Assembly (NCBI GenBank): GCA_018658465.1
Contig: JABHVE010000027.1
Location: 1 to 42,806, forward strand
Origin: Alphaproteobacteria bacterium
GTDB lineage: Bacteria > Pseudomonadota > Alphaproteobacteria > UBA2966 > CAIVPW01
Reading direction: 5' to 3'
Length of the DNA stretch: 42,806 nucleotides
Within the stretch, counting starts at the first letter, position 1. Every line of letters begins with the position of its first letter. The notes beneath the pieces were generated by a model. It was not told the DNA's origin. It made no database searches and saw only the letters and a list, made by a program, of their open reading frames with translations. The position numbers were made by a program, and so were the translations under genes. This document shows, one piece after another, positions 2,228 to 42,806 of the stretch.

Positions 2228-2345
2228 GCGGATGATCCTTGTTGACGACTGGCCACGGAGACTACACGGCCAGCTAAGTTTACGCAGCCATGAATAACGG
2301 GGCAATCGCCATCCCACGAACGGTCTACAAGGGCCCCCAAACGAA

Positions 2346-2371
2346 ATGGCCCGGCATCATAGCCGGGCCAT
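2346..2371 (-). terminator. Probable terminator hairpin downstream of rpoH
   Basis: A perfect 10-bp inverted repeat, ATGGCCCGGC / GCCGGGCCAT, with a 6-base loop lies 23 bases past the rpoH stop. On the minus strand it is followed by TTTCGTTT, a short U-rich tract. It fits an intrinsic terminator for rpoH and separates it from the cyclase gene, which lies downstream on the same strand. Confidence 0.7.
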
Positions 2372-2394
2372 CGTTAACAAAATTTGGGGATATG

Positions 2395-3282: not shown

Positions 3283-3290
3283 AAAAAATT

Positions 3291-3304
3291 CGCCCGTAAG
3301 GGCG
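3291..3304 (-). promoter_or_regulatory. Hairpin plus U6 between the Shine-Dalgarno and ATG of rpoH
   Basis: On the minus strand the sequence is GGGGAG, then the 5-bp stem CGCCC/GGGCG with a TTAC loop, then AATTTTTT, and then the rpoH ATG. It can be read as an intrinsic terminator for rluD. Equally, it is a 5' leader stem that brings a distant GGGGAG to about 10 bases from the start codon. The two readings are not exclusive. Confidence 0.55.
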
Positions 3305-3313
3305 CTCCCCAGC

Positions 3314-13119: not shown

Positions 13120-13166
13120 TGCCCTAGGTCGATGCCCAGCGAGCAGGCAAAGAATAGCGCGCCCGA

Positions 13167-16100
13167 TTATGCGTTTGCGGCTGCCGTGTGGGGACTGACG
13201 ATGGAGCGATAATCCGGGAACCGAATTGTCATGGTTGTTCCGGTGCCCCGGGCGCTGGCGACAATCAACATTCCCCCGTGGGCTTCCAATTGGGATTTCA
13301 CCAATGGCAGCCCCAGGCCTGTGCCTTCAAAGCTGCGGTTTAAAGCGCCGTCCACTTGGCCGAACGCGGTCATTGCTTTGGCAATGTCATTTTTGTCCAT
13401 GCCAATGCCAGTGTCGGAAACCCAAATTTCCACGCACCCATCGTGAATTACATGGGCTCCGACAGTTATTGTTCCGCCGGGTTCCGTGAATTTCACTGCG
13501 TTTGAAAGAAGGTTGATCAAAATTTGTTTCAGGATCCGGGCGTCGGCGCGCAGCCAGGGCAGGGCATCTGGAACCTGATTAAGCAAAGTCAGGCCCCCAC
13601 GATCCGCGCGCTCAGACAAAATTCTGATGGTTGATTCAACGGCCTGAGGGAGCTCGATATCGCTCTCTTTCAGATTGACCACGTCCGCCTCGATCTTGGA
13701 CAAATCCAGAATGTCGTTGATTACCCCAAGAAGATGTAGCGAGGATCCGTGGATGTCTTTGAAATATTCCAGCTGCCGCGTCGTCGGGTCTCCTGGAACC
13801 CCGGCCATTAGCAATTCTGTGAATCCGATAATAGCATTCATGGGGGTGCGTAATTCGTGGCTGGTATTTGCCAGAAATTCAGTTTTTGCGCGATTGGCCA
13901 GCTGAGCTTCGTTGGACGCATCCCGCAATCGATTTTCCCACTGAACGCGGTCACTGATATCGCGGATCATTACAGTGCCAAGCTTTTCACCATTGGAAAC
14001 GAAGCTTGAAATCGTTGCTTCGGCAGGAAATTTCGATCCATCTTTTCGCAGACCAGAAATTTCCCCAGGTACATTCATCAAACGCTGATTGTCGGTCGAC
14101 CCCAAGAATTTGGCGACGTGTTTACGGTGAGCGTCGCAGTGCAATTCGGGTATCAGGTCATCCAAATTAAGTTTGGTCGCCGAATCACTGGTGTATCCGA
14201 AAAGCTCAGCCGCCGCCTGGTTGAAAAGTTGGATGTCCTGATGCTCGTCAATCGTGATAATGGCCTCACCAGCTTGGCCGATGATGGAAGCCAATCGGCC
14301 GGTGGCGGCGTCGAGTTTACCTGCGACTTCAAAATGTTCCGAAATATCCCGGGCGATAATCACCATCCCCAAAATTTCACCGCTGGCTCCCACATAGGGG
14401 CTGTAGCTAACATCCAAATGCGCACGCCAGCCGCCAGGAAAGGTGATCCATTCTTGGTAGTGAACTTCGTCACCGGATAATAGCTTTTCAAAATTTGGTT
14501 TTATTTTTTCGTGGAGCAATTTATCGCCCAGTAGGGATTTCACCGGGAAGCCAACCACTTGGTCTTTGGTTTTTCCAAACGGTCGCAGGTACGCTTGATT
14601 GGCAGCCAAGTATTTATAATCCCGATCCATCAAGGCGATCATGTCCGACGAATTGGCGACGATAACCTCGTACCGGCGCAGTTCTTCTTCCGCCCATTTT
14701 CGTTTGGAAATGTCGGTGATGGAGCCAACCATGCGTAAAATGTTGCCCGCTTCGTCCCACACAGCTTGGCCGCGTTCATGGACCCAAATGTAATGCCCAT
14801 TGGCGTGGCGCACGCGAATGATGATGTCGAATGGTAGCAGGTCGGCGATATGCCCCTGGATCGCGTCCCGGAACGGCTGCACATCGTCGGGGTGGATCAG
14901 TGCGAAAAATGCTTCCCTGGTCGGGGGAAAGGTCTCGTTGGATAAGCCCAAAATTTCGTGCCACCTTGGGGACCGATAACTTTCCCCGGTGTTGTGGGTC
15001 CAATCCCAAAGCCCAGCATCGATACCGGCGACTGCCAGGGCAAATCGTTCTTCAGACGATCGCAGGGCTGTTTCGGCGACTTTGCGCTTGGTGATTTCAA
15101 TGACGGACCCGGCAAGGCTTAAGGGTTCGCCTTGTTCATCCCAAGCGGCCTGCCCGGTGATCTGGGCCCAAATGTAATGACCTTGCTTATGGAGGATGCG
15201 CACCTCCACATCGTGACGGGTGCGCTCTTTCAGATGCCGGTTCATGGATGTCTTGAGCCGGTCGCGGTCGTCTGGATGAACAATTCGAAAAAATCCCTCG
15301 GGCGTCGCTGGCAGGTCGCCTTCGTCGTATCCAATCAGGCTAAGAAACCTGGGGGATCGGTAAACGACCCCGGTCCCGATGTTCCATTCGAAAATGCCAG
15401 CATCCGAACCGGCGACAACCAAGGCGTATTGCGCCTCGCTTTCCGACAGCTCCCGATCTCTGTCCACCAGGTCCCGTGTGCGGGCCTCGACCTGGCGGCG
15501 TAAAGTCCAGGACCATGCCAGCACCAACACGGTAATTGCCAAAACGATCCCAACAACCAATCCAATGGCAAGGCGTGTCAAAAAGCTTTCCCGTGCCTGT
15601 GCTTCCCGGCGTTCGGGATCGAAAACGAAATCCAGATATTCAAATTCGCCGTCCGCCAATTCGGTTTCGGCCAGCACCCTAAACATCGCCGACCATCGTG
15701 CAGGATTTGAAAACCCAAGGGTCATTTCCGGCGGCAGCGAAAAGTCCGCGATTTCTTTCAGCATGGATCGGTTGAAGGCGCGAATATCCGCAATCGGAAT
15801 GGTCCTGGGCAGTTCAGAGGAAATCCGGTCGGTGATCTCTTCCCTATGGTCAAGGGCATACTCCCAACCTTGAAAGCTGGCTGCGATAAATCGTTGAACA
15901 AGCTCGGGATCGTTTTCTGCCAGACGGGAAGTCGTGAAAATGGCGTCCCCATAAAAGTCCACACCGTAGACAGTGGGCCCCAGGAACGTCGCCTCAACGC
16001 CCAGATCCGATAAAACCCATTTTGCCGCCGGCCAGACTGTGAAAAGCGCGTCAACCAATCCGTCCGCAAGCGATTGCGGGCCTTTGCCTGGGGCGACTTC

Positions 16101-29268: not shown

Positions 29269-29961
29269 GTGGTAAGCCAAGACATCAGTCAGGATCAAAA
29301 AGCCGCCATTGGCTCTGGCCCGCTGGAATCAGACGAAGTTGATGGCGAAAGCGCCATTACTCTGGGTCTTTTGGACGCCGTGCACCAAAACAGCTCGGTT
29401 TCCCAGCGGTCCTTGGCGGCGGAGCTGGGAATCGCTCTGGGGCTCACCAACGCCTATTTGAAGCGCTGCGTGCGCAAAGGCCTGGTAAAGGTCCGGTCAG
29501 CCCCGGCTAATCGCTATGCCTATTATCTGACTCCCAAAGGCTTCGCCGAAAAAAGCCAACTCACCGCCCGCTATTTGTCCGGCTCGTTCAGTTTTTATCG
29601 GCGGGCACGGGATCAATGCGACGCCTTGCTGGCCACCAGTGCCGATGAAGGTTTCCGGCGCATCGCCCTGTATGGCGTTGGTGACTTGGCGGAAGTAGCC
29701 GTGTTGTGCGCCATGCGCCACCACCTGGAAGTCGTGGGTATTGCCGACGATCGGGCAAACATCAATAGCTTCTTGAACCTGGTGGTGGTGCGCGAACTGA
29801 AAGACTTGCCGACTATTGATGGGGCACTTTTGACCGATTCTGCGCGGCCTCAACACAGCTTTGAAAGTTTGGCCAAACAGATCGATCCGGCGCGCATTCT
29901 GGTTCCGGAATTGTTGCACGTGACCCGGGATTCCGATGGGCCGGGAAGGGCGGGATCGTGA
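29269..29961 (+). CDS. Winged-helix transcriptional regulator at the head of the glycan operon
   Basis: 230 residues from GTG 29269, with TAGGAG 10 bases upstream. An N-terminal MarR/winged-helix domain is visible (ITLGLLDAVHQNSSVSQRSLAAELGIALGLTNAYLKRCVRKGLVKVRSA, then a wing YAYYLTPKGFAEK). A second domain follows that looks nucleotide- or sugar-phosphate-binding (RRIALYGVGDLAEVAVLCAMRHHLEVVGIADD, a Rossmann-like strand-loop-helix). This two-domain layout is known from regulators at the start of exopolysaccharide loci. The second domain may sense a metabolite. Its stop overlaps the next GTG by 4 bases. Confidence 0.8.
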   Translation: MVSQDISQDQKAAIGSGPLESDEVDGESAITLGLLDAVHQNSSVSQRSLAAELGIALGLTNAYLKRCVRKGLVKVRSAPANRYAYYLTPKGFAEKSQLTARYLSGSFSFYRRARDQCDALLATSADEGFRRIALYGVGDLAEVAVLCAMRHHLEVVGIADDRANINSFLNLVVVRELKDLPTIDGALLTDSARPQHSFESLAKQIDPARILVPELLHVTRDSDGPGRAGS

Positions 29962-30473
29962 ACCGCTGGTATTGCGCATACACCAAACCCGGTGCCGAGC
30001 TTTGGGCGCGGACGAATTTGTGGGAACGCGGGTTCGACGTGTACTTGCCTCTGTACCAAAAACGCCGCCGCCACGCCCGGCGCACGGACTATGTGGCGGC
30101 ACCCCTGTTCCCGCGCTATTTGTTCGTATCCGCTGATTTGGAAACCGGGGTATCCCGGGGCATTACCTTTGCGCCGGGGGTTTCCAGCCTGATCGCCTTT
30201 GGTGGCGATCCGGCGCCGGTCCCGGATCCAATCATCGCCGAAATTCGCGCCAACGAAGGCGAGGACGGAATGGTGGATATCGATCACGGACATGGCATTG
30301 CCTCGCGCTATCAGCCCGGCGACAAAGTGCGTATCGCCGAAGGCCCCATGGCCGACTCGGTGGGCATTTTTCACGCCCGCAGCGCCGACCAACGGGTATT
30401 CATTTTGCTAGATCTTTTGGGCCGTCAGGTTCAGGTCAAAGTCCACGCCAAGGCTTTGAGCCCCGAGGAATAA
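29958..30473 (+). CDS. Specialised NusG/RfaH-type transcription antiterminator
   Basis: 171 residues. An NGN domain (RWYCAYTKPGAELWARTNLWERGFDVYLPLYQKRRRHARRTDYVAAPLFPRYLFVSAD) is joined to a KOW domain (YQPGDKVRIAEGPMADSVGIFHARSADQRVFILLDLLGRQVQVKVHAKAL). This is the RfaH/LoaP-like size and pattern, distinct from housekeeping NusG, which is normally beside secE. Such paralogues bind elongating RNA polymerase and let it read through long surface-polysaccharide operons, often after recruitment at an ops-like leader element. Being second in the glycan operon supports that role. I saw no convincing ops match. Confidence 0.85.
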   Translation: MNRWYCAYTKPGAELWARTNLWERGFDVYLPLYQKRRRHARRTDYVAAPLFPRYLFVSADLETGVSRGITFAPGVSSLIAFGGDPAPVPDPIIAEIRANEGEDGMVDIDHGHGIASRYQPGDKVRIAEGPMADSVGIFHARSADQRVFILLDLLGRQVQVKVHAKALSPEE

Positions 30474-30511
30474 ATGGGGCTCGCCGTGCCTACAAAAAAA
30501 GCGTTCCAACC

Positions 30512-32251
30512 ATGAATTCTTGGCGTCAACGTTTTGACCTTATCGCCCGATTAATCGGCGAGCGCCGCAGGTTGGCCGCCGTGATGTTCACGGTCACATT
30601 GCTGGCCGCATTGGCCGAAAGTTTCGGCCTGTTCCTGGTCTTGCCAATTTTGTCGGGGGTGTTGGGCCTGGCAAGTGAACCCGGGATGCTGACGAATATT
30701 TCCGGTCGCATCGAACAGTTGTTCCCCGGAGCCTTTCGCCTTGAAATGCTCCTGGCCTTGCTGGCGCTGGCGTTTTTGGCCAAGGGGGCATTGGCGGTCA
30801 CCGCCCGGGGCATGACCGACTATTTTGCCCTGCGCCTGCGTGATGACTGGGCATCGGCGATGTTCGATCATTATTTATCCGCCCGCCGCGCCGGGCTCGC
30901 TGGGCAAAAACTGGGGGCAATGGTTCACAATGTCGCCCAGGAATCCTATCGGGCGTCTCGCGGCGTCGCCCTGTTGTTCGACTTTCTGAACCGTTCCATC
31001 CTGGTCTTGGTGCTGACGGGGTTGCTGTTGCTCATCAGCTGGCAGGCAACAATTTTTGTCGCCCTGACCGGGGTGCTGGTGTTTTACGGCATCCGCAAAA
31101 GCACGTTTCGATACTCCGTAAAATTCGGCAAGCTGCGGCAAAAAATGTTCCAGAAGATCACAGCGATTTCTGCGGAATCCTTGGCGGCAATCAATGAAAT
31201 AAAGCTGTTTGGTGCCAACGCCCGCAAACGTGGCGAATTGGGGGAGCGTCTGGAGCGCCACACCCGGGCGGAAACGAAATTTCGGGTGGCCAAGGAAATC
31301 CCTGTCCAGGCCACAGAATTAATGCTGATCCTGCTGTTTGGCGCCGGCCTGGTGATTATGACAAGAGTGTTGGGGCTGGAGCCCGCGGCATCTGCCGGGC
31401 AGTTGGGGCTGTTCTTGTTGGTGGGCCAACGCATGCTCACCAACGTCAACAACATCATTTCCCAGCGCATGAAAATCGCCGCGATGCTACCGGCTGTGGC
31501 CTTGGTGAGCGATCTGGCCCACGCCGAGCCGGATCGCGAAGATACCCAAACCGGCACGCCCTATAAGCCCCTTGAAACCGACATCGAATTCCGCGATGTG
31601 GGGTTTGCCTATGATCCCGGCACGCAAATTTTGTCGGGCATCAACATGGTAATCCCCAAGGGCAAAACCACGGCGATTGTTGGCGCGTCGGGTGTGGGCA
31701 AATCGACCTTTGCCGACATGTTGTTGGGGTTCGTGTCGCCGACCCAGGGCGCCATCGTAACGGGGGACCAGGATTGGTCTGAATTCTCGTTGTCGTCCTT
31801 GCGCCAGGGAATTGGTTATGTGACCCAGTCGCCCATGATCTTCAACACCACAGTGCGGGACAACATCCGGTTTGGCGCCCCGGCTGCCACCGACAGCGAA
31901 ATCATCGAAGCCGCCAAAATCGCCCACGCCCATGAATTCATCACCGCCTTGGCCGATGGATATGACACCCAGATTGGCGATCGCGGCGAAAATTTATCGG
32001 GTGGCCAGCGCCAACGTCTTGCCGTCGCCCGGGTCATTTTGTGCCGCCCCAGCGTCTATGTGTTCGACGAAGCGACGAACGCCTTGGACCCGGAATCGGA
32101 ATCCCTTGTGCGCGCGGCCATCCGCGAGTTATCGGGGGATGCCACGGTCATTTTGATCGCCCATGGGGAATCGGTGCTGGGCCAGGCGGACGTCATTTAC
32201 CGATTGGAAAGCGACGGCGCCCATTCGGTCAGCAACAACGAGGCCGCCTGA
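30512..32251 (+). CDS. MsbA/PglK-like ABC transporter (fused permease and ATPase)
   Basis: 579 residues. Six hydrophobic helices occupy the first about 320 residues. The ATPase follows with Walker A IVGASGVGKSTFADMLLG, signature NLSGGQRQRLAVAR, Walker B VYVFDEATNALD and H-loop VILIAHGE. The fused half-transporter layout matches MsbA and PglK-like lipid or lipid-linked oligosaccharide flippases. In the context of nonulosonic acid genes, the substrate is probably a lipid-linked glycan rather than a peptide. It ends 1 base before the neuB start codon. Confidence 0.87.
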   Translation: MNSWRQRFDLIARLIGERRRLAAVMFTVTLLAALAESFGLFLVLPILSGVLGLASEPGMLTNISGRIEQLFPGAFRLEMLLALLALAFLAKGALAVTARGMTDYFALRLRDDWASAMFDHYLSARRAGLAGQKLGAMVHNVAQESYRASRGVALLFDFLNRSILVLVLTGLLLLISWQATIFVALTGVLVFYGIRKSTFRYSVKFGKLRQKMFQKITAISAESLAAINEIKLFGANARKRGELGERLERHTRAETKFRVAKEIPVQATELMLILLFGAGLVIMTRVLGLEPAASAGQLGLFLLVGQRMLTNVNNIISQRMKIAAMLPAVALVSDLAHAEPDREDTQTGTPYKPLETDIEFRDVGFAYDPGTQILSGINMVIPKGKTTAIVGASGVGKSTFADMLLGFVSPTQGAIVTGDQDWSEFSLSSLRQGIGYVTQSPMIFNTTVRDNIRFGAPAATDSEIIEAAKIAHAHEFITALADGYDTQIGDRGENLSGGQRQRLAVARVILCRPSVYVFDEATNALDPESESLVRAAIRELSGDATVILIAHGESVLGQADVIYRLESDGAHSVSNNEAA

Positions 32252-32252
32252 A

Positions 32253-33335
32253 ATGCCTGACGCAATTCTTATCGGGGGACACGCGGTGGGGCCGGGTAAT
32301 CCGGCTTTTCTGATCGCCGAAGTCGCCCAATCCCACGATGGATCATTGGGGTTGGCCCACGCATTTGTCGACAGCGCGGCCAAGGCTGGTGCCGACGCTG
32401 TGAAATTCCAAACCCACATCGCCGCGGCTGAATCAACGTTGGATGAACCCTTTCGCACGGCCTTTAGCACCCAGGACGACACCCGGTACGATTACTGGAA
32501 GCGCATGGAATTCACGGCGGAACAATGGGCGGGGCTTGCGGCCCATGCCGCGCACAAAGATCTGGTGTTTTTGTCGTCGGCGTTTTCCATCGAGGCCATG
32601 GAGATATTGAAATCTTTGGGCATGCTGGCGTGGAAAATTGGCTCAGGCGAGCTTGCCTCACACCAAATGCTGACGGCCATCGCCCAGACGGCAGCGGCGT
32701 CAAACGCCCCCGTGTTGCTCAGCACCGGCATGACCACATTTGATGATATCGATGCCGCAGCGGCTTTGGTCCTGGCAGAAGGCGCTGCCATGGGGGGGTT
32801 TCAGTGCACCAGCCGGTACCCGGCGGCGTTGGAAGACGTGGGCCTGAACGTCATCGACCAATTACGTTCGCGGCTGAATTGTCCGGTGGGTCTGTCCGAT
32901 CACACCGGTACTGTGCACCCCAGCTTGGCGGCGATCGCCCGCGGTGCGGACATGATCGAAGTCCACATCGCTTTGGACAAAGCCATGTTTGGCCCCGATG
33001 TACCGGTGTCATTGACCCCCGACGACATCGCCTTGCTGCGTGCCGCCCGGGATGCGGTGGCGGTGATGGATGCCAACCCGGTGGACAATGATGCCATGGC
33101 TGCCGAATTGGCGCCCATGCGATCCCTGTTCAACAAAAGCGTGGCAACAGTGCGCGACTTGCCGTCCGGCACAATCTTGGCCCCAGACATGCTAACCGAA
33201 AAGAAACCGGGAACCGGAATCCCGGCCGCCGACCTGCCGATCTTGATTGGCCGGGTGTTGGCCCGCGACGTGTCTTCGCAGCACTTGCTCGCGGGCGAAG
33301 ATCTGGAACCCTCTATCGAGCCTGAATTGGGATGA
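32253..33335 (+). CDS. neuB: NeuB-family nonulosonic acid synthase
   Basis: 360 residues from ATG 32253, immediately after the transporter stop. The N-terminal NeuB barrel is clear: FLIAEVAQSHDGSLGLAHAFVDSAAKAGADAVKFQTH, then AWKIGSGELASHQMLTAIA, LLSTGMTTFDDI, FQCTSRYPAALEDVGLNVI and GLSDHTGTVHPSLAAIARGADMIEVHI. The C-terminal SAF (antifreeze-like) domain begins at KSVATVRDLPSGTILAPDMLTEKKPGTGIPA. It condenses phosphoenolpyruvate with a hexosamine (ManNAc for Neu; a 6-deoxy diamino sugar for Leg or Pse) to give a 9-carbon 2-keto acid. Which sugar cannot be told from sequence. Confidence 0.9.
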   Translation: MPDAILIGGHAVGPGNPAFLIAEVAQSHDGSLGLAHAFVDSAAKAGADAVKFQTHIAAAESTLDEPFRTAFSTQDDTRYDYWKRMEFTAEQWAGLAAHAAHKDLVFLSSAFSIEAMEILKSLGMLAWKIGSGELASHQMLTAIAQTAAASNAPVLLSTGMTTFDDIDAAAALVLAEGAAMGGFQCTSRYPAALEDVGLNVIDQLRSRLNCPVGLSDHTGTVHPSLAAIARGADMIEVHIALDKAMFGPDVPVSLTPDDIALLRAARDAVAVMDANPVDNDAMAAELAPMRSLFNKSVATVRDLPSGTILAPDMLTEKKPGTGIPAADLPILIGRVLARDVSSQHLLAGEDLEPSIEPELG

Positions 33336-34489
33336 AAAATTCGATCCGTAAAATTTGTATCGTGGTCAACAGCCGGGCCAATTACGGGCGCATCAAATCG
33401 GTGATGCGGGCGGTGAACGACCATCCCAAATTGGAACTTCAATTGATTGTCGGGGCGTCGGCGTTGCTGTACCGGTTCGGCAATGTTGCGGACCTTATTC
33501 GCGCAGATGGGTTCGAGCCTTCTGCCACCGTGTACACCATCGTCGAAGGTGAAACGCCAACGACCATGGCCAAGTCCACCGGCATGGCGATCATGGAGCT
33601 GGCCACTCAGTTCGAAAACATGAAACCCGATATCGCCCTGACTGTGGCCGACCGGTTTGAAACCATGGCGACGGCGGTTGCCGCCAGCTATATGAACATT
33701 CCCCTGGCCCACACCCAGGGTGGCGAGGTCACAGGCAATATTGATGAAAGCGTTCGCCACGCGGTCACCAAGCTTTCCCACCTGCATTTTCCGGCCACCG
33801 CACAGGCCGCCGATTACTTGGTGCGTATGGGGGAAGAACCATCGACCGTGCATTACACCGGCTGCCCCGCCATTGATTTGGTGGCCGGTCTGGACCTGAC
33901 GTTGCCCCCAGATATTTTCACCCGGTACAAAGGTGTCGGTGCCGACCTAGACCCCGCCAAGCCATATTTGGTGGTGCTGCAACACCCCGTGACATCGGAA
34001 TACGGCAGCGGGTTCGACCAGATCAACGCGACCCTACAGGCGGTGGAAAGCATTGGCATGCAAACCGCCTGGTTGTGGCCCAATGTGGATGCCGGGTCCG
34101 ACGATATCTCCAAGGGATTGCGCATGTACCGGGAAGAAAAATCCCCGGATTGGCTGCACATGTATCGCAACTTTGGCGCCGAAGATTATGCGCGGCTGAT
34201 CAATGGTGCCCAATGCTTGGTGGGCAATTCGTCATCGGCATTGCGCGAAGGTGCCTATCTTGGGGTGCCTGCTGTGAACATCGGCAATCGTCAACAAGGC
34301 CGCGAACATGGTGCAAATGTTGTGCACATCGCCAACGATGCCGATGCGATCGTTGCCGCCATCACTGCCCAAATCGCCAAGGGTCGTCACCCAGGTTCCG
34401 AACTGTTCGGTGACGGAACCGCAGGCGGAAAAATTGCGGACATTTTGGCCAACGCCGAAATCACCATTCAAAAACGCTTGGCCTATTAA
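33332..34489 (+). CDS. neuC: NeuC-family UDP-N-acetylhexosamine 2-epimerase (hydrolysing)
   Basis: 385 residues; ATGA overlap with neuB. Epimerase-family features include ICIVVNSRANYGRIKSVMRAV, LTVADRFETMATAVAASYMNIPLAHTQGGEVTGNIDESVRHAVTKLSHLHFPAT, and the C-terminal CLVGNSSSALREGAYLGVPAVNIGNRQQGREHGANV. The hydrolysing form releases free ManNAc (Neu pathway) or the 2,4-diacetamido-6-deoxy-mannose precursor of legionaminate from the UDP sugar, giving the NeuB substrate. The neuB-neuC order is typical. No dedicated 4,6-dehydratase, aminotransferase or acetyltransferase for Leg or Pse is in the window, which favours a Neu-type sugar or a precursor made elsewhere. Confidence 0.9.
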   Translation: MKNSIRKICIVVNSRANYGRIKSVMRAVNDHPKLELQLIVGASALLYRFGNVADLIRADGFEPSATVYTIVEGETPTTMAKSTGMAIMELATQFENMKPDIALTVADRFETMATAVAASYMNIPLAHTQGGEVTGNIDESVRHAVTKLSHLHFPATAQAADYLVRMGEEPSTVHYTGCPAIDLVAGLDLTLPPDIFTRYKGVGADLDPAKPYLVVLQHPVTSEYGSGFDQINATLQAVESIGMQTAWLWPNVDAGSDDISKGLRMYREEKSPDWLHMYRNFGAEDYARLINGAQCLVGNSSSALREGAYLGVPAVNIGNRQQGREHGANVVHIANDADAIVAAITAQIAKGRHPGSELFGDGTAGGKIADILANAEITIQKRLAY

Positions 34490-35391
34490 TGGACGGGTTC
34501 GGCCCATGCGAGATTTGTGGCGGGGACAATTGGAGACCCGTGTACCAGGGCCCCGTGCGCGACGGCAAGTTCGGCAATCTGACAGCCCCCACAACAGTCG
34601 CCGAATGCGATGATTGCGGTGTCGTGCGCTTGGCCGAGGCATCGTGCCACGACGATGATTTTTACGCGGGGCCCGAATATTGGGCATCTGTAACTGGCGG
34701 TGACGGGTTCTCTAATTCCCACGAAATGATGGATGACGTTGGGCTTCATGGGCTTTGGGCCGATGATATCGGCGGAAAAACCGTGGCCGAAATCGGCACT
34801 GGTGGTGGCGGCTTTTTGGATCAGATCAAGGAATTGGAGGTCGCTCCCAAAACCGTCATTGCCATCGAGCCCGCCGACGCTCTGCGCCCCGATCTAGAAG
34901 CCAAGGGGTTCGAGACCTTCGCCTATACATCGGATGCCGCCGAGTCGTTTGCCGGGGCGGTTGATCTGGCCTGCACGTTTAATGTGATCGAACATGTGCC
35001 GGATCCTTCCAAGTTTCTGGCCGATGCCGCCGCATTGCTTGCACCGGACGGGCGGTTGCTTCTCAGCACCCCCAATCGTGACGATACCCTGATGGATTTG
35101 GCCCCTGATTATCCCCAATTTTTCTATCGCGTCGCCCACCGTTGGTATTTCGATGCGGACGCCTTGGCGGCTTGTGCCGCCCAGGCGGGCTTGAAAATTT
35201 CCCGTGTTCATTACGTGCAGCGTTATGGGTTGGCCAACGCCTTGGTATGGATCCGCGATGGCAAACCGTCGGCGCACGACTCGTTGCCGGGGCTGCGCGA
35301 CGCTCGTCTGGATCAAACCTGGCAAGATAATTTGGTGCGCCGAGGCGTGGCCGATCGCCTGTATGCGGTTTTGGAAAGGGTGCCCCAATGA
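34489..35391 (+). CDS. Class I SAM-dependent methyltransferase with N-terminal zinc ribbon
   Basis: 300 residues; the ATG shares one base with the neuC stop (TAATG). The N-terminus carries two Cys pairs (CEICGGDNW and CDDCGVVRLAE), a zinc ribbon as in sugar C-methyltransferases such as TylC3-like and NovU-type enzymes. The SAM motif I is TVAEIGTGGGGFLDQIKEL, with later motif VDLACTFNVIEHVPDPSKFL and LLAPDGRLLLSTPN. The acceptor is likely a nucleotide sugar or glycan. Its position between neuC and the dehydrogenase suggests it works on the same sugar. Confidence 0.8.
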   Translation: MDGFGPCEICGGDNWRPVYQGPVRDGKFGNLTAPTTVAECDDCGVVRLAEASCHDDDFYAGPEYWASVTGGDGFSNSHEMMDDVGLHGLWADDIGGKTVAEIGTGGGGFLDQIKELEVAPKTVIAIEPADALRPDLEAKGFETFAYTSDAAESFAGAVDLACTFNVIEHVPDPSKFLADAAALLAPDGRLLLSTPNRDDTLMDLAPDYPQFFYRVAHRWYFDADALAACAAQAGLKISRVHYVQRYGLANALVWIRDGKPSAHDSLPGLRDARLDQTWQDNLVRRGVADRLYAVLERVPQ

Positions 35392-36329
35392 CCTTGAAAA
35401 TTGCCTATCTGGGGGCCCAATCCGGATACGAATCCCTGGTGGAAACCCTGGGTGGAGCGGCCGACGCGGTCCATGTGGAGGCCAACCCGGACGCCCTATC
35501 ACAAGCCCTGGAAACGGCTGACGGCTTGCTTGATGCCTCCATGGCGGTGCCCATCAGCGATGCCATGATCGACGCCGCGCCGAATTTAAAAATCATCAGT
35601 TGCGCCACAACTGGGTCCGATCACATTGCCCGTGAATCAGCCAATGCACGCGGCATTGCCATCCACACCCTGCGCGAAGACGCCGACCTGTTGGCCAATC
35701 TGACCCCGGCGGCGGAACTTTCTTGGGCCCTGTTGATGGCCGTCGCTCGCAATCTGCCAGCAGCCGTGGCCCACACCCGGGCCGGCAATTGGCAGCGCGA
35801 AGATTTTCCCGGGACAATGATCAACGGTCGGACGCTGGGGCTTGTTGGTGTTGGCCGCATCGGCGGTTGGATGGCCCGGTATGCCCAGGCATTTGGCATG
35901 TCGGTGGTTGGGTACGACCCCTACCAAGACACTCTGCCCGATGGGGTCGAACGGGTCACCCTGGCGGAAATGTTCGGCCAATGCGATTTCGTCTCGGTCC
36001 ACGTGCATCTGTCCGATGAAACCCGTGGGCTTATCAGCCGTGAATTATTAGAAGCCGCGAAGATCGGGCTGGTCCTGATCAACACCTCGCGCGGGGCCAT
36101 CGTTGACGAGGCGGCGCTGGTCCATGGGCTGGCGTCTGGGCGCATCAGTGGCGCGGGCCTTGATGTGCTGGATGGCGAGCCGGACACTGCAAACCATCCC
36201 CTGGTGCTTTATTCCCAAACCCACGACAACCTTTTGATTACCCCCCATTGCGGCGGCTTCAGCCCTGACGCCGTGCGCTTGGTGTGCGCCCGCGCTGGGC
36301 AAAAAATCATGGAGAAATTGGGCCTGTGA
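35388..36329 (+). CDS. D-2-hydroxyacid dehydrogenase (phosphoglycerate dehydrogenase-like)
   Basis: 313 residues; ATGA overlap with the methyltransferase. NAD-binding motif LGLVGVGRIGGWMARYAQAFGMSVVGYDPY. The catalytic trio is present: Arg in LINTSRGAIVDE, Glu in DVLDGEPDTANHPL, His in ITPHCGGFS. It should reduce a 2-keto acid to a D-2-hydroxy acid or the reverse. No ACT or ASB domain follows, so it is not a full serine-biosynthetic SerA. Paired with the ThDP enzyme next door, it probably acts on a 2-keto acid special to this pathway. Confidence 0.85.
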   Translation: MTLKIAYLGAQSGYESLVETLGGAADAVHVEANPDALSQALETADGLLDASMAVPISDAMIDAAPNLKIISCATTGSDHIARESANARGIAIHTLREDADLLANLTPAAELSWALLMAVARNLPAAVAHTRAGNWQREDFPGTMINGRTLGLVGVGRIGGWMARYAQAFGMSVVGYDPYQDTLPDGVERVTLAEMFGQCDFVSVHVHLSDETRGLISRELLEAAKIGLVLINTSRGAIVDEAALVHGLASGRISGAGLDVLDGEPDTANHPLVLYSQTHDNLLITPHCGGFSPDAVRLVCARAGQKIMEKLGL

Positions 36330-37849
36330 GCGCCGTGTCCAATTTCGCTGCGGGCATTGGGGAGGCAAAAGTCCCCCGGGCTTTTGGCGTCCTGGGCAGC
36401 GGCTCAAGCCTGGAGCTTACCGACGCCATGGTGAACGGTGGTGTGGCGTTCCAGGGCGTTCACCACGAAGCCTCTGGCGCCATCATGGCCGGGATCACTG
36501 GGCGATTGTCGGGTATTCCCGGCATTGCCATGGCCATCAAGGGGCCGGGTTTCTCAAACATGGCCCCGGGGCTGTCGGCCTGCCTGATGGACGGCTTGCC
36601 GATGATCGCCGCAGTGGAAGCCTATCCCCCCGGCACCGATTGGGCCGTGCGCCACAAAGGATCTGACCATGGGGCCTTGGCACAGGCAGTTGCCAAAGGC
36701 CGCGTGCAGTTGTCCGAAAAAACCAGCTTTGGCGACGTGGCGGCCTGGGCCAAGGCTGAGACCCCCGGCCCCGTGGTGGTCGAGTTGACTGACGGCGACG
36801 GGGCGGTTCCAGACTCCCTACCAGCCGTTGATGATGTGACAGAGGTCATCGAGGCCATCGAAGCGAGTGGGCGACCCATGGTCATCGCCGGGTCAGGGGC
36901 TCTGCGCCAAGGCTGGGGGCGGGTTTTGAGCACCCTTTCGATCCCGGTGTTTTCCACCGCCAACGCCAAGGGTGTGATCGACGAAACATTGGCTCATGCG
37001 GCTGGAGTTTACACCGGGGTGGGCTTGGGCGAAACGCCGGAAGCCTTGTTGTTGGCAGAAACCGATTTGATCGTGGGGTTGGGGCTGCGGCCGACCGAGG
37101 TTCTGGCGACCAACCTGCCAAAGCCGTCTGTGAATATCGATACCCTGGCCTCGGCTGATGCCTTTGGCTTTGGCACATCCTCCGGCCCAGGGATCGTCGG
37201 CCAGGCGTTGTCGGCATTGGCAGAAAAAGAATGGGGCATGGCGCGCACCCAATTGGTGGTGGGGAAGCTGCGGGTCACCATGATGAACGGCGGCTTCCGC
37301 CCGGCGCAAATTTTCGAAGCGGTGGATCGCCGGTTCGATGGCCTCGTCCGTGGCGTTTTCGACGTGGGCTATTTCTGCACCATTGGTGAACATGCTTGGC
37401 GGGCGCGGCGCCCCGATTTGTGCCTGATGTCGGGGAATGGCCGTTACATGGGCACCGCAATCCCCATGGGCCTTGGCGCGGCCCTCCATGACGCCAACGT
37501 TCCCACGGTGATTTTTGTCGGCGACGGCGGCATCGGCGGTCCCGTGGCGGAATTGAAAATCGCGGTCCAGGCAAAATTGCCGGTGATGGTCGTGTTGTTG
37601 TCCGATGGCGGCTATGGGTCGGTGCGCACCCGCGCCATCCGCGACGGCCTGATCCAATCGCCGTTGCTGCTGGATCAACCGTCGTGGCTGGATGCAATTT
37701 CTGGTCTGGGTCTGCCCGGGGTTCGGGTGGAAAATATGGATGGGTTTAATGACGCCTTGGATCTTTGGCGGCCGGACAGCGGCCCGGTGTTCATCGAAGC
37801 CGGGTTCGATGCCGACGCATACCAAGCCATGACCGACGGCATTCGATAG
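36326..37849 (+). CDS. Thiamine-diphosphate-dependent enzyme (acetolactate synthase/decarboxylase-like)
   Basis: 507 residues from GTG 36326, which overlaps the previous stop as GTGA. The Pyr domain holds the catalytic Glu (VHHEASGAIMAGITGRLSG). A middle domain follows (IVGLGLRPTEVLA). The PP domain has GDGGIGGPVAELKIAVQAKLPVMVVLLSDGGYGSV. The usual Asn after GDG-x25 is missing: the pair is Ser-Asp where most have Asn-Asn, so the Mg2+ ligand set is unusual. It should decarboxylate or ligate a 2-keto acid. Related two-gene sets exist in other nonulosonic loci, but I know of no fixed biochemical assignment. Confidence 0.8.
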   Translation: MSAVSNFAAGIGEAKVPRAFGVLGSGSSLELTDAMVNGGVAFQGVHHEASGAIMAGITGRLSGIPGIAMAIKGPGFSNMAPGLSACLMDGLPMIAAVEAYPPGTDWAVRHKGSDHGALAQAVAKGRVQLSEKTSFGDVAAWAKAETPGPVVVELTDGDGAVPDSLPAVDDVTEVIEAIEASGRPMVIAGSGALRQGWGRVLSTLSIPVFSTANAKGVIDETLAHAAGVYTGVGLGETPEALLLAETDLIVGLGLRPTEVLATNLPKPSVNIDTLASADAFGFGTSSGPGIVGQALSALAEKEWGMARTQLVVGKLRVTMMNGGFRPAQIFEAVDRRFDGLVRGVFDVGYFCTIGEHAWRARRPDLCLMSGNGRYMGTAIPMGLGAALHDANVPTVIFVGDGGIGGPVAELKIAVQAKLPVMVVLLSDGGYGSVRTRAIRDGLIQSPLLLDQPSWLDAISGLGLPGVRVENMDGFNDALDLWRPDSGPVFIEAGFDADAYQAMTDGIR

Positions 37850-37859
37850 GGAAAAGTTG

Positions 37860-38873
37860 ATGGCAAAGCACATCTTGATCGTGGGGTCGGGCAGCGTTGG
37901 CAAACGCCACGCGGCGAATTTGGCGGCCCTGGGCTGCACCATTTCGGCCATGGATCCCCACCCCAGGCGCATATCGGAAATGGCTGCGGAGACCGAAGTC
38001 GTTGGTGCCTTTGACAGCATCGCCGAGGCCCTGCATGTGGAAAAAACTTTTGATGGAGTGGTGATCGCCTCGCCGCCAAAATTCCATGTGGATCAGGCCA
38101 TCGAGGCATTACAGGCCGGAATTCCGGTGCTGTTGGAAAAGCCTGTATCGCCTGATCTGGAAGCCGCCGAACGCTTGGCCTCCGTGGTCAAATCCACCGG
38201 CGTGCCGTTGCTGTTGGGCTACACATGGCGATGGTGGCCGCCCCTGAACCAAGTGCGGTCGATGCTGGCGGACGATGCCATCGGAACTTTACGTCATGTG
38301 CGGTTCGTTATGTCCGCCCACTTGGCCGACTGGCACCCCTGGGAAAATGTCCAGGATTGGTTCATGGCTAGCCGCGATTTGGGTGGCGGGGCGCTGTTGG
38401 ACGAAAGCCATTGGGTCGATCTGGCTTTGTGGTTGTTCGGGAGCCCGAAATCCGTCATCGCCCGGATCGAAAAAATCAGCGATCTACAGGTCGAAACCGA
38501 CGACAACGTGGACATGATGCTGGTCTATGAAAACGGCCTGCGGGTCAGCATTCATTTGGATCTGTACGGGCGACCCCATCAAAAAACCATCCGCTTCAGC
38601 GGCGAAGGCGGCACGATTTTGTGGACCGATTCCCCCAACCGAGTGTCGATCAGCCATGACGCCACCCCCGGCGAAGACGGCTGGCAGGAAACCGATTACA
38701 CCTGCGAACGTAACGAAATGTTTGTTGAAGTGGCCAAAGAATTCTTAGGCGTGGTGGATGGTGCGGCTGTTAACTCTTGCACCATCTCCGACGGGGTCGG
38801 GGTGTTGGAGGTATTGGAAGCCGCGCGACGCAGCAGTACGGAAGACCGCACCGTCGAAATGTCGCCGGTCTAA
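37860..38873 (+). CDS. Gfo/Idh/MocA-family oxidoreductase
   Basis: 337 residues from ATG 37860, 10 bases after the ThDP gene. The N-terminal Rossmann domain opens HILIVGSGSVGKRHAANLAALGCTISAMDPH. The family motif with the catalytic Lys is GIPVLLEKPVSPDLEAAERLA. The C-terminal domain contains GGGALLDESHWVDLALWLFG, with the usual His. Enzymes of this type oxidise or reduce sugar hydroxyls on nucleotide sugars (WlbA-like) or free sugars, using NAD(P). Within the operon it is the third redox or C-C-bond enzyme between neuC and neuA. Substrate unknown. Confidence 0.88.
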   Translation: MAKHILIVGSGSVGKRHAANLAALGCTISAMDPHPRRISEMAAETEVVGAFDSIAEALHVEKTFDGVVIASPPKFHVDQAIEALQAGIPVLLEKPVSPDLEAAERLASVVKSTGVPLLLGYTWRWWPPLNQVRSMLADDAIGTLRHVRFVMSAHLADWHPWENVQDWFMASRDLGGGALLDESHWVDLALWLFGSPKSVIARIEKISDLQVETDDNVDMMLVYENGLRVSIHLDLYGRPHQKTIRFSGEGGTILWTDSPNRVSISHDATPGEDGWQETDYTCERNEMFVEVAKEFLGVVDGAAVNSCTISDGVGVLEVLEAARRSSTEDRTVEMSPV

Positions 38874-38877
38874 TTCC

Positions 38878-39600
38878 ATGGCGTGGGAAGGAAAAAATGT
38901 TCTGGCGGTGGTCCCTGCCCGGGGTGGGTCCAAGGGCATCCCCCGCAAGAATTTGAAACCCGTCGGCGGCATCAGTTTGGTGGCACGGGCGGCGCAAATC
39001 ACCGGGGCCTTACCGTGGATCGACGAGGCCATCATTTCCACCGACGACGATGAAATCATGGCCGAGGCCGTGGCTCATGGCCTGGATGCACCGTTTGTGC
39101 GGCCGCCGGAATTATCCGCGGACGGCGCAACATCGGTGGATATGTGGTGCCATGCTTGGGCCACGGCCGAAGATCATTATCAGTGCGAATTCCATCTATC
39201 GGTGTTGTTGGAACCCACCAGCCCCTTGCGCACCCCAGATGATGTGACGCGCACGGTGCGAACGATGGTGGACGGGGGTCACAGGGCGGCGGCGACCGTC
39301 AGCCCGACGCCAGCCCACTACACTCCGCACAAAACCTTGACCGTGGAAGACGGCACCATTGGGTTCTACCTAGAGGGCGGCGCCGGGCATTCCCTGCGCC
39401 AAACCATTCCGGATTATTTTCACCGCAACGGCATTTGTTATTGCGTGACACGCCAAGCGTTGATGGAGGCGGGCGAAATCTTGGAACAAGACTGCGCCGC
39501 CGTGATCATCACCCGACCCGTGGTCAATATCGACGAGCCATTCGAATTGGAATTGGCGGAATTTTTGCTGGATCGTCAAAACTCTGCTGGGCAGCAATAA
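38878..39600 (+). CDS. neuA: NeuA-family acylneuraminate cytidylyltransferase
   Basis: 240 residues from ATG 38878, chosen because the family starts VLAVVPARGGSKGIPRKNLKPVGG, which binds CTP. Also visible are WIDEAIISTDDDEIMAEAVAHG, the LLEPTSPLRTPDDVTRTV segment, and the Asp and His region PDYFHRNGICYCVTR. The end NIDEPFELELAEFLL matches NeuA-like enzymes. It activates the NeuB product as the CMP sugar donor. With neuB and neuC it completes a nonulosonic acid activation route. The ORF in the track begins 40 codons earlier only because of frame overlap with the oxidoreductase. Confidence 0.9.
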   Translation: MAWEGKNVLAVVPARGGSKGIPRKNLKPVGGISLVARAAQITGALPWIDEAIISTDDDEIMAEAVAHGLDAPFVRPPELSADGATSVDMWCHAWATAEDHYQCEFHLSVLLEPTSPLRTPDDVTRTVRTMVDGGHRAAATVSPTPAHYTPHKTLTVEDGTIGFYLEGGAGHSLRQTIPDYFHRNGICYCVTRQALMEAGEILEQDCAAVIITRPVVNIDEPFELELAEFLLDRQNSAGQQ

Positions 39601-39602
39601 CG

Positions 39603-40448
39603 ATGGGTGATCTTTCCCCACCCGTTTTCGTTGGCGGAATGTTTAAATCCGGCACCAGCTTGTTGCGGGCCATGTTGGGCCAGCATTCGTCCATGTCTGC
39701 TGGCCTTGAAACCGCGTGGTTCGAATTGGATTGGCAAAACAATTTGGGCCGCGGTGGCGAAGCGTTAGAGGATTATGTGACGCGCACTGCTGAATTTTAC
39801 GGGGAAGACCGGGATGTGGCCCAGGCCATGGCGGCGGACAGCCCAGACGCCTTGGCCTTCATCGACCGGCTGTTGGGGGCCAAAGCCCGGCGCGATGGCA
39901 GCCGCCGTTGGGTGGAAAAAACGCCAGGCAATGTGCGCTTCGCCGATCAAATTTTTGCCCGCTGGCCCGACGCCCGCATGGTCCACATCATTCGCGACCC
40001 CCGGGATACCTTCGCCTCCCTGCGGCAGATTTCCAAATGGGACACTGTCGAAGAATTCGCCAGCCGTTGGTGCGACACCTTTGGTGCCTGGGAAAAATTC
40101 AAAACCGACGACGTGGTCATTTCAACGAACGCCCTGGAAATTCGTTACGAGTCCTTGGCAACGGATTCAGCCGCGACCATGGCCCAAATTTTGGATTTCT
40201 TGGATGAGCCATGGGAGGCCGCGGCAGGGGAACACCGGGGCGAAACCAAGGATTATTTGCGGGTGTTAAAGGCCACGGGCAAGGCGAGCTCCACACTGGC
40301 GCGCCTGGCGGAACCCATGTCAGTCAGCCGAATCGGAATTTGGCAAGACACATTGACCTCGAATGACCTGGCTGGGGCAGAGCAATACGTGGCGGATCGC
40401 GACCTGACTGATGTGTACCGGCAATGCTTTGCCGAGGCCGGATCATGA
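39603..40448 (+). CDS. Sulfotransferase (PAPS-dependent type)
   Basis: 281 residues; ATG directly after the neuA stop. The 5'-phosphosulfate loop is FVGGMFKSGTSLLRAMLGQHSSM, and the 3'-phosphate site is MVHIIRDPRDTFASLRQISKW. Both are the hallmark pair of cytosolic-type sulfotransferases. WVEKTPGN is also typical. It would move sulfate from PAPS to a hydroxyl of the glycan or the nonulosonic acid, giving a strongly acidic surface, plausible in a marine organism. PAPS synthesis genes are not in the window. Confidence 0.85.
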   Translation: MGDLSPPVFVGGMFKSGTSLLRAMLGQHSSMSAGLETAWFELDWQNNLGRGGEALEDYVTRTAEFYGEDRDVAQAMAADSPDALAFIDRLLGAKARRDGSRRWVEKTPGNVRFADQIFARWPDARMVHIIRDPRDTFASLRQISKWDTVEEFASRWCDTFGAWEKFKTDDVVISTNALEIRYESLATDSAATMAQILDFLDEPWEAAAGEHRGETKDYLRVLKATGKASSTLARLAEPMSVSRIGIWQDTLTSNDLAGAEQYVADRDLTDVYRQCFAEAGS

Positions 40449-41431
40449 ACCAGTTGCTGTTCGTCAACTACCATTACATCCGCAATGCCGGTCAGTACGC
40501 CGTGGGCGACGGAAACCAAGCGCGGTTCCCCGGAATACATCCACTTGGAACACAGGCGTTCGCCGACCAGATCGACTGGCTGGCCGATCACTTTCACATG
40601 GCCACACCGGCCGAAGCTGAAGCCCACATTTTGGGCGGCACCCAATTGCCGGGGCCCAGCGTTGTTGTGACCTTCGATGACGGATTGGTGGACCATGGCC
40701 CGGCCGCCAAGGTATTGGAGGCCGCCGAAATCCGCGGCATATTTTTTGTCACCTCGCGGCCGTTAAAGGACCGGGTGCCCTTGGTGGTGCACAAAGTCCA
40801 TTGGCTTCGGGCGACCACGCCCCCGGATGATTTCCGCAAAGAATTCAATGGCTTAGTGCCCGCCGAATGGGCCGAGCCACACCATGGAGCCCAAGACGCC
40901 GAGGCCGCCGCCAAGATTTATGTTTACGATTCCCCCGCAGACGCGATGCTGAAATACCGCATCAATTTTCGGCTGCCCCACGATGTGGTGGATGCGGTGA
41001 CGTCGGCAATGATGAAGTCCCGCGGGATCTCCGGTGGCGAATTTTGCCAGGGGACCTACTTGAATGCCGAAGGCGTTCGGGCCCTTCAAGACGCTGGGCA
41101 TTTGGTGGCGGCCCACGGCCACAGCCATACCCCGTTCAGCCGCTTGGAACCCCACGAATTGGCGACGGATATTCAAACCAACGTGGACTGTTTGACCGGG
41201 ATCTTGGGGGCGCCACCCCAATGGGTTTCCTATCCGTATGGGCGGGATTGGGCGGTGCCCGAAGACACATCAGCATTTTGCCGCCAATTCGGTTTTGAAA
41301 TTGCGCTGACCTTAAAGGCCGGGTGGAACGGTGCGGATGCCGATCCCACCCGTTTAAACCGCATCAATACCAACGAAGTGGAAGCGGTTGCGGGCCCACA
41401 GGCTGCCAACAAGGCTGCCACCAATGCCTAG
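40445..41431 (+). CDS. Polysaccharide deacetylase (NodB-type)
   Basis: 328 residues; ATGA overlap with the sulfotransferase. The NodB motifs are TFDDGLVDHGP (catalytic Asp pair) and HLVAAHGHSHTPFSRL (metal His pair). A segment WVSYPYGRDWAVPED matches the later catalytic arch. It opens LLFVNYHYIRN, as in many deacetylases of surface-glycan clusters. It removes an N- or O-acetyl group from a sugar. There is no signal peptide, so it acts in the cytoplasm or on a membrane-linked precursor. It overlaps the next gene by 8 bases. Confidence 0.85.
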   Translation: MNQLLFVNYHYIRNAGQYAVGDGNQARFPGIHPLGTQAFADQIDWLADHFHMATPAEAEAHILGGTQLPGPSVVVTFDDGLVDHGPAAKVLEAAEIRGIFFVTSRPLKDRVPLVVHKVHWLRATTPPDDFRKEFNGLVPAEWAEPHHGAQDAEAAAKIYVYDSPADAMLKYRINFRLPHDVVDAVTSAMMKSRGISGGEFCQGTYLNAEGVRALQDAGHLVAAHGHSHTPFSRLEPHELATDIQTNVDCLTGILGAPPQWVSYPYGRDWAVPEDTSAFCRQFGFEIALTLKAGWNGADADPTRLNRINTNEVEAVAGPQAANKAATNA

Positions 41432-42017
41432 GCGGTTGCGGTTATCGTTGAAGCCCGCCAAGCAATTGTTATGGTTTTTCCTGTGGTGGGATATGCGCCT
41501 ATCCAGGGCCAAGGAAATTGGTATCGATGCCGGGTGCGGGCGCATGGAAAACAAGCATCTGTTCCGAACCGAGCGGTACGTGGGCATCGATGTGGATACC
41601 GAACGCCTGGCCGAAGCCCACCGGCAACATCCAGACGCCCAGGTCATCAACGGCCCCATTGAAGATGCCGGTGACGTGGTCGGCGATATGGTTCTGTGCG
41701 TTCAGGTCATGCACAACCGATTCTTCAAGGTTGAAAACACACTGGCCGCAGTCAGCGCCTTGGTGAAAATGGTGCGCCCCAATGGCGCGCTTATTTTCAA
41801 CTTTGGTCGCCCAAGTTTCCCGTATGAGGCCCAGGTTGATGCTCTGCTGGCCCCGGCGTTTACGTCGGTCAAAAAGCGCAAATACGGGGCTTTGTCGGCC
41901 AACCAGACGGTGTTCGCACCCCTGTTGGCTTTGGCGATGTTTGTAATCCCGGCTCTGCGCAAAGGTCGGGGATTTCACAAAACCTACTATGTCTGTCGGG
42001 GCCGGATCGGTGGCTAG
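41424..42017 (+). CDS. Class I SAM-dependent methyltransferase
   Basis: 197 residues from ATG 41424, overlapping the deacetylase stop. SAM motif I is EIGIDAGCGRMENK, then RYVGIDVDTERLAEAHRQHPDAQVINGPIED, with later MVLCVQVMHNRFFKVENTLAAVSALVKMVRPNGALIFNF. The N-terminus is basic and hydrophobic (MPRRLRLSLKPAKQLLWFFLWW), and a hydrophobic stretch lies near the end (FAPLLALAMFVIPAL), which suggests membrane association. The substrate is likely a lipid-linked or surface sugar. A 121-base gap follows before the radical SAM gene. Confidence 0.78.
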   Translation: MPRRLRLSLKPAKQLLWFFLWWDMRLSRAKEIGIDAGCGRMENKHLFRTERYVGIDVDTERLAEAHRQHPDAQVINGPIEDAGDVVGDMVLCVQVMHNRFFKVENTLAAVSALVKMVRPNGALIFNFGRPSFPYEAQVDALLAPAFTSVKKRKYGALSANQTVFAPLLALAMFVIPALRKGRGFHKTYYVCRGRIGG

Positions 42018-42138
42018 ATGGTGCCCCTGAAAAATCCTAAAACCCTAGTCTGGCTGCGGTCTTTGGCCAAGGTAGCAGTAGAAATTTTCACCAAAAAGGT
42101 TTAGGTAGAATGACCATATTTACAAAGGAAGGTTTGCG

Positions 42139-42806
42139 ATGAGAACCGCAACGGATCTTGCGCGCTCTGCTCTGAAAGGCGCCACGGCGCCCCTGGCGAT
42201 GTTTTCGACGCCAAAGAAAGAAGCGCTCGATTATTGGGTCAATCATCGCTTCCCGCCGTCGTCGATTTATCAGATCAGCTTCCGTGCGGCAGACGGCTGC
42301 AATTTGCGCTGTAAAACGTGTCATTTCAGCCTGGATTATCGCAAGGGTCAAAAGACCCTTTTGATGGATCCGGAATTGGTGCGCGAGGTGGTGGATACCA
42401 CCAAGGGCCATGTGAATTTGATGAGCTTTTCCGCGTCGGGCGAACCGCTGATCAACCCAGAAATCGACAAGATGGTCGGCTACGCCAGTTCTGCGGGAAT
42501 CAGAACAAAGGTTGGGACCAACGTCATGCTGTTGACCCCGGACATGTCCAAACGCCTGTTGGACGCTGGGCTGTCGATTTTGAAAGTGTCCATCGACGGT
42601 GCCACCAAGGAAACCTATGAAACGGTCCGGGTCGGGGCGAGCTTCGAGAAGCTGCGCGATCACCTGGAAGAATTCCGGCGGCTGCGCGACAAGAGAGGTG
42701 CCAAGACCAAGATCGTCATCAACACGGTGATCACCAACGACAACCACTTCGAAGTGGAAATGGTGAAAGAGGTTTTTGCTCACATCGGCGACAAGTTCGC
42801 GGCCAA
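42139..42806 (+). CDS. Radical SAM protein, N-terminal part (3' end outside window)
   Basis: The gene is absent from the ORF track because it is open at the right edge. ATG 42139 has AAGGAAGG 7-14 bases upstream. The 222 visible residues include the cluster motif CNLRCKTCHF (CxxxCxxC), preceded by SSIYQISFRAADG. Further family features are LMSFSASGEPLINPEIDKMV, IRTKVGTNVMLLT and SILKVSIDGATKETYETVR. This matches the radical SAM/SPASM group found in surface-glycan and lipid-modifying clusters. The missing C-terminus may hold extra cysteines. The reaction is unknown. The 121 bases before it carry no clear terminator. Confidence 0.88.
   Translation, partial: MRTATDLARSALKGATAPLAMFSTPKKEALDYWVNHRFPPSSIYQISFRAADGCNLRCKTCHFSLDYRKGQKTLLMDPELVREVVDTTKGHVNLMSFSASGEPLINPEIDKMVGYASSAGIRTKVGTNVMLLTPDMSKRLLDAGLSILKVSIDGATKETYETVRVGASFEKLRDHLEEFRRLRDKRGAKTKIVINTVITNDNHFEVEMVKEVFAHIGDKFAA

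Follow-up and report, generated by a model that had tools for sequence, protein, structure and literature searches.

A conserved dehydrogenase–ThDP enzyme–Gfo/Idh block in nonulosonic acid loci with a possible role in carbon branching of the sugar

Nonulosonic acids occur as decorations of flagella, capsules and LPS, with a known diversity that lies mainly in N-acyl groups, O-linked groups and stereochemistry. We know of no Neu, Leg or Pse pathway that uses a hydroxyacid dehydrogenase together with a ThDP enzyme, in agreement with the preliminary description of the present DNA, which had stated that these routes need neither a hydroxyacid dehydrogenase nor a ThDP lyase; likewise, no example of a C-branched nonulosonic acid has, to our knowledge, been described. 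Acetolactate-synthase-like ThDP enzymes decarboxylate a 2-oxo acid and couple it to a carbonyl, the acceptor of acetolactate synthase being a ketone, and Gfo/Idh enzymes act on many substrates, GenD2 and WlbA oxidising sugar rings. A literature search revealed no nonulosonate locus with a D-2-hydroxyacid dehydrogenase (2HADH) or an acetolactate synthase, the nearest system being the Shewanella sfm operon. The sfmABCDE genes of S. oneidensis, encoding a NeuB-domain protein, a ThDP enzyme, a reductase, a methyltransferase and an ATP-grasp protein, are required for normal flagellin modification, and the flagellin nonulosonate of this organism carries a nitrogen-free, partly methylated moiety of 236–264 Da (PMC3765264). 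YerE-like ThDP enzymes branch keto-sugars with a decarboxylated 2-oxo acid, with ErwE preferring hydroxylated 2-oxo acid donors (PMC12247030), and the Gfo/Idh enzyme RgNanOx oxidises C4 of a sialic acid (PMC7535918). Here, we analyzed an operon at positions 32253–39600 of an alphaproteobacterial stretch of 42,806 nucleotides (the window), in which nonulosonate genes flank a 2HADH, a ThDP enzyme and a Gfo/Idh oxidoreductase, together termed the trio or block.

Layout of the operon and origin of its sugar

All seven genes of the operon are open frames on the plus strand and were identified by Pfam and TIGR profiles in the order neuB, neuC, CxxC methyltransferase, 2HADH, ThDP enzyme, Gfo/Idh and neuA (Table 1), neighbouring genes overlapping by 1–4 bases or being separated by gaps within about 10 bases. 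This confirmed for every frame the arrangement described before, with neuB and neuC at one end, neuA at the other and almost all genes overlapping or within 10 bases. The methyltransferase contains two amino-terminal CxxC pairs, C7/C10 and C40/C43. Apart from NeuA, the operon encodes no nucleotide-activating enzyme, and Pfam analysis of the block yielded no acyltransferase, CoA ligase or ATP-grasp ligase. Downstream of the second methyltransferase, a radical-SAM gene runs off the end of the window. Promoter and terminator scans gave results near chance level. The regulator and NusG-paralogue pair (29269–30473) heads neuBC loci even where the block sits elsewhere, providing a hint of dedicated antitermination.

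Table 1 Features of the nonulosonate cluster; positions are those of the window.
Feature	Positions	Strand	Profile evidence and remarks
Winged-helix regulator, head of the cluster	29269..29961	+	HTH_24; precedes neuBC in other genomes too
NusG paralogue, RfaH/UpxY-like antiterminator candidate	29958..30473	+	Pfam NusG; co-located in other loci
ABC exporter, MsbA/PglK-type flippase candidate	30512..32251	+	ABC_tran and ABC_membrane
neuB, nonulosonate synthase	32253..33335	+	PF03102 (NeuB) 198 bits; SAF domain
neuC, hydrolysing UDP-GlcNAc 2-epimerase (to ManNAc)	33332..34489	+	Epimerase_2; TIGR03568 373 bits
Accessory CxxC methyltransferase	34489..35391	+	Methyltransf_23; outside the constant block
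2HADH, block gene 1	35388..36329	+	2-Hacid_dh(_C); 2-Hacid_dh_C 183 bits
ThDP enzyme, acetolactate-synthase fold, block gene 2, GTG start	36326..37849	+	TPP_enzyme_N/M/C
Gfo/Idh/MocA sugar dehydrogenase, block gene 3, likely start ATG 37860	37857..38873	+	GFO_IDH_MocA(+C)
neuA-like CMP-nonulosonate cytidylyltransferase	38878..39600	+	CTP_transf_3
Sulfotransferase	39603..40448	+	Sulfotransfer_3; linked to the block in many relatives
Polysaccharide-deacetylase-family protein	40445..41431	+	Polysacc_deac_1; linked to the block in many relatives
Second methyltransferase	41424..42017	+	Methyltransf_11

The NeuC score against TIGR03568 lies above the cut-off of 236 bits, and the protein matched human GNE with 240 bits versus 192 bits for the diNAc-bacillosamine epimerase. 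The preference was reversed (GNE 147 bits, diNAc-bacillosamine epimerase 232 bits) in the control, a NeuC encoded at another nonulosonate locus of this genome, near a GDP_Man_Dehyd-family dehydratase. NeuB has N. meningitidis SiaC/NeuB as its nearest solved structure and reached 267 bits for N-acetylneuraminate synthase (TIGR03569), below the cut-off of 400. A legionaminate origin was rejected for this operon, as NeuC is not of the LegG (diNAc-bacillosamine) type and LegB, LegC and LegH were not found beside NeuB and NeuC among the genes tested (29269–42804). Pseudaminate was rejected likewise, the PseI model (185 bits, cut-off 340) and, for NeuA, the PseF model (99 bits, cut-off 206) both staying below their cut-offs and PseB, PseC, PseH and PseG being absent from the operon. 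Based on the GNE-like NeuC and the lack of LegB/C/H and PseB/C/H/G genes in the operon, the precursor is probably ManNAc derived from UDP-GlcNAc, as judged from sequence. Since NeuB and NeuA are divergent and fall below the curated cut-offs, the name Neu5Ac should not be applied to the final sugar.

The genome, a 2.05 Mb draft in 155 contigs, encodes four NeuB homologues. Locus L053 (G000:C25, 5957–10099) is likely a legionaminate locus, as judged from its GDP_Man_Dehyd-family dehydratase, its NeuB and its NeuC, which is of the diNAc-bacillosamine type. L054 (G000:C128, 1593–11143) contains a cytidylyltransferase, NeuB, HisF/HisH-like genes and an amidotransferase-like protein (2309–3610), for which no Pfam family was detected at E 0.001; its gene content looks like an acetamidino-type pathway. 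In L055 (G000:C31, 8994–12537), genes for a cytidylyltransferase-like protein and an ABC exporter come after the fourth NeuB homologue.

Conservation and rarity of the block

Scanning the genome_contigs collection with the ThDP protein yielded 20 loci, in which 2HADH, ThDP enzyme and Gfo/Idh were present together wherever the contig extends far enough, and in nearly every relative found. The trio occurs in Alpha-, Gamma- and Betaproteobacteria and in Nitrospira, the taxon names being those of the records, which are MAGs. Ten of these loci combine neuB, neuC, 2HADH, ThDP enzyme, Gfo/Idh and neuA in the same order, including a gammaproteobacterium (L030), a Nitrospira (L032) and a Burkholderiales member (L041), the latter with an extra reading frame between the ThDP and Gfo genes. 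This frame (12454–13341) reads as formyltransferase-like from its sequence. Six further loci (L035, L037–L040 and L042) contain the trio followed by neuA, with neuB and neuC absent from the locus, and in L033 and L044 the trio has no adjacent neuA. Two short contigs cover the arrangement in part, L031 (Desulfonatronovibrio) with part of neuC, 2HADH and ThDP enzyme, and L043 with part of the ThDP gene, Gfo/Idh and neuA.

A whole-genome search detected NeuB in all 13 genomes tested. In the seven genomes that were read (G015–G021), a close neuB–neuC pair is located elsewhere (59–62% and 72–75% identity), and again the regulator and the NusG paralogue stand at its head. In one genome with a separate block, the NusG paralogue and neuB are separated by a peptidase M20-family gene (L100, 7633–9081), and other split loci have a gap of similar size at this position. 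The best argument that the six enzymes serve one pathway comes from G012, where the set is divided differently between two loci of the same contig: the first reads ABC exporter, neuB, neuC and, directly thereafter, Gfo/Idh, and the second methyltransferase, 2HADH, ThDP enzyme, two other genes and then neuA, sulfotransferase and deacetylase. About half of the relatives also have sulfotransferase and deacetylase genes downstream.

Together, these data establish the association of the trio with nonulosonate genes as conserved across phyla and rare. Its carriers belong to an uncommon group of aquatic bacteria, joined by a few more distant relatives. The earlier proposal, which tied the middle enzymes to nonulosonate synthesis, is supported in this respect by their position beside neuBC and neuA in ten loci, some of them in distant taxa, and the co-occurrence search that it had called for returned no set of relatives keeping the middle genes away from neu genes. 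It had, however, taken four middle genes as a single block, which holds for 2HADH, ThDP enzyme and Gfo/Idh and fails for the methyltransferase, present in only about a third of the block loci; a four-gene unit was thus ruled out and the methyltransferase regarded as accessory. The methyltransferase also adjoins neuC where the block is missing (L089 and L090). L089 (5725–11848) brings together deacetylase, sulfotransferase, NeuC, the CxxC methyltransferase and a Maf-like gene.

At a threshold of E at most 1e-60, a ThDP orthologue was detected in 5 of 385 sampled alphaproteobacterial genomes, all of which are among the nine carrying a NeuC of 68% identity or more. This overlap corresponds to a hypergeometric probability of 2e-9 if the genomes are independent, a value that overstates the association, as three of the five come from one family. 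Scoring the top three candidates per genome gave no ThDP orthologue beyond the own genome in 399 genomes of the phylum. Among the matches listed in a plasmid search, ThDP similarities stayed below about 30% identity and 2HADH similarities reached up to about 40%, and three plasmid ThDP contexts that were inspected were unrelated. Four genomes (G232, G321, G361 and G398) carry the NeuC without the block, with methyltransferases adjoining neuC and, in three of them, a Maf-like gene beside it, as read from the sequence and confirmed by Pfam in G232. The occurrence of this close NeuC type in block-free genomes indicates that the NeuC pathway does not need the block, which is therefore an add-on. 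In quick trees of NeuA, NeuB and NeuC, block and block-free loci clustered without clean separation, requiring 2–4 label changes.

Enzymes of the block and their possible reactions

The 2HADH retains the R235/E264/H287 triad and the GVGRIG motif, these columns being conserved among 24 sequences. For the ThDP enzyme, the AF2 model (pLDDT 90.7) adopts the three-domain TPP fold, and the top Foldseek matches were acetolactate and acetohydroxyacid synthases. The catalytic glutamate E48, the Mg/ThDP-binding GDG motif (G399-D400-G401) and D427 are kept, E48, D400 and D427 being invariant in 24 sequences. A canonical acetolactate synthase of branched amino acid synthesis was ruled out by the score (best 120 bits against the acetolactate synthase models, cut-off 509) and by the gene context. 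The AF2 model of the Gfo/Idh protein (pLDDT 92.4), comprising a Rossmann and a carboxy-terminal domain, matched in Foldseek the Agrobacterium oxidoreductase 5uhw, GenD2 and WlbA and, more weakly, RgNanOx, with which it shares 16% identity. The lysine of its EKP motif (K95) and the D182/H185 pair are invariant in 18 sequences.

Taken together, the ThDP fold, the likeness of the Gfo/Idh protein to sugar-ring dehydrogenases and the YerE/ErwE precedent suggest C-branching. We tentatively favour a nonulosonic acid pathway with a dedicated modification module giving a C-branched nonulosonate, a reading that we place somewhat below an even chance. By family evidence, NeuC would convert UDP-GlcNAc to ManNAc, which NeuB would condense with phosphoenolpyruvate to a Neu5Ac-type acid. 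From its linkage, the trio may act on the sugar before NeuA activates it with CMP or at about that stage: Gfo/Idh would oxidise a sugar hydroxyl to a ketone, 2HADH would turn a hydroxyacid into a 2-oxo-acid donor, and the ThDP enzyme would decarboxylate this donor and join it to the ketone as YerE-type enzymes do, yielding a C-branched nonulosonate with a tertiary alcohol. That the block itself makes such an acid by this sequence, from sialic-acid-like sugar through a ketone to a ThDP-made carbon–carbon bond, is possible though doubtful. The product may be modified by the sulfotransferase, the deacetylase-family protein and the methyltransferases, and the ABC exporter could carry the glycan out.

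The trio could instead build a small hydroxy- or keto-acid that becomes attached to the nonulosonate in N- or O-linkage, the ThDP enzyme forming an acyloin-type acid that the dehydrogenases adjust. 2HADH and an acetolactate-synthase-like enzyme would be a plausible route to a branched hydroxyacid, and the nitrogen-free nonulosonate moiety of S. oneidensis, with its operon containing a ThDP enzyme, a methyltransferase and an ATP-grasp protein (PMC3765264), lends this some precedent. We nevertheless consider it unlikely, as the block encodes no candidate acyltransferase, CoA ligase or ATP-grasp ligase and its invariant third member is a sugar-type dehydrogenase. The interpretation given in the preliminary description, a 2-keto or branched acid that is joined to the 9-carbon sugar or yields an acyl side chain, is partly supported: joining a 2-keto acid to the sugar fits the acetolactate-synthase-like fold, and an acyl side chain appears less likely than a C-branch because an acyltransferase or acyl activator is missing from the block.

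The linkage of the trio to neuA does not prove the substrate and would also fit action on a different sugar within this glycan. Surface-glycan clusters often mix pathways, and the sulfotransferase and deacetylase-family genes that accompany many loci may act on other residues, so that the trio might make a different component, merely co-regulated with a conventional sialic acid pathway. This seems quite unlikely given that the operon contains neither a further nucleotidyltransferase nor a 4,6-dehydratase and that the genes with which the trio stably associates across phyla are neuA, neuB and neuC. Slightly more improbable is action on the hexose ahead of NeuB, with Gfo/Idh oxidising ManNAc, the ThDP enzyme extending or branching it and NeuB taking the new substrate. 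The position of Gfo/Idh directly after neuB–neuC in G012 and the divergence of the NeuB clade, below the Neu5Ac synthase cut-off, would agree with such an order, whereas split genomes mostly keep the trio with neuA, apart from neuBC, and the same NeuB/NeuC clade occurs without the block.

Relation to described systems

With C-branching as the favoured reading, the trio probably turns a sialic-acid-like sugar into an unusual, possibly carbon-branched, form that is so far undescribed. If true, a module forming carbon–carbon bonds would represent a new kind of nonulosonate diversification together with a genetic marker for it, and would suggest new ThDP enzymes working on acidic keto-sugars.

Compared by gene content, the operon shares with sfmABCDE the combination of a NeuB-domain gene, a ThDP enzyme and a SAM methyltransferase, a precedent showing that nonulosonate operons with a ThDP enzyme exist elsewhere as well. 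The sfm operon differs in its SDR-type reductase and ATP-grasp protein and in lacking 2HADH, Gfo/Idh, NeuC and NeuA. Similar to the NeuABC pathway to Neu5Ac, a UDP-GlcNAc-type NeuC, a NeuB with SAF domain and a CMP-transferase are encoded in one operon, here with three additional conserved enzymes and with NeuB and NeuA diverging below the curated cut-offs. The RgNanOx/YjhC enzymes (PMC7535918) have the same Gfo/Idh fold and set a precedent for C4 oxidation of nonulosonates, but are catabolic and carry HxxH in place of the DxxH found here. The YerE-like enzymes (PMC12247030), compared by description, belong to the ThDP superfamily that holds acetohydroxyacid synthase and also occur in surface-glycan clusters; the known ones act on nucleotide-activated deoxy-keto sugars, whereas the keto-sugar acceptor proposed here would be found in an operon whose sole activator is NeuA.
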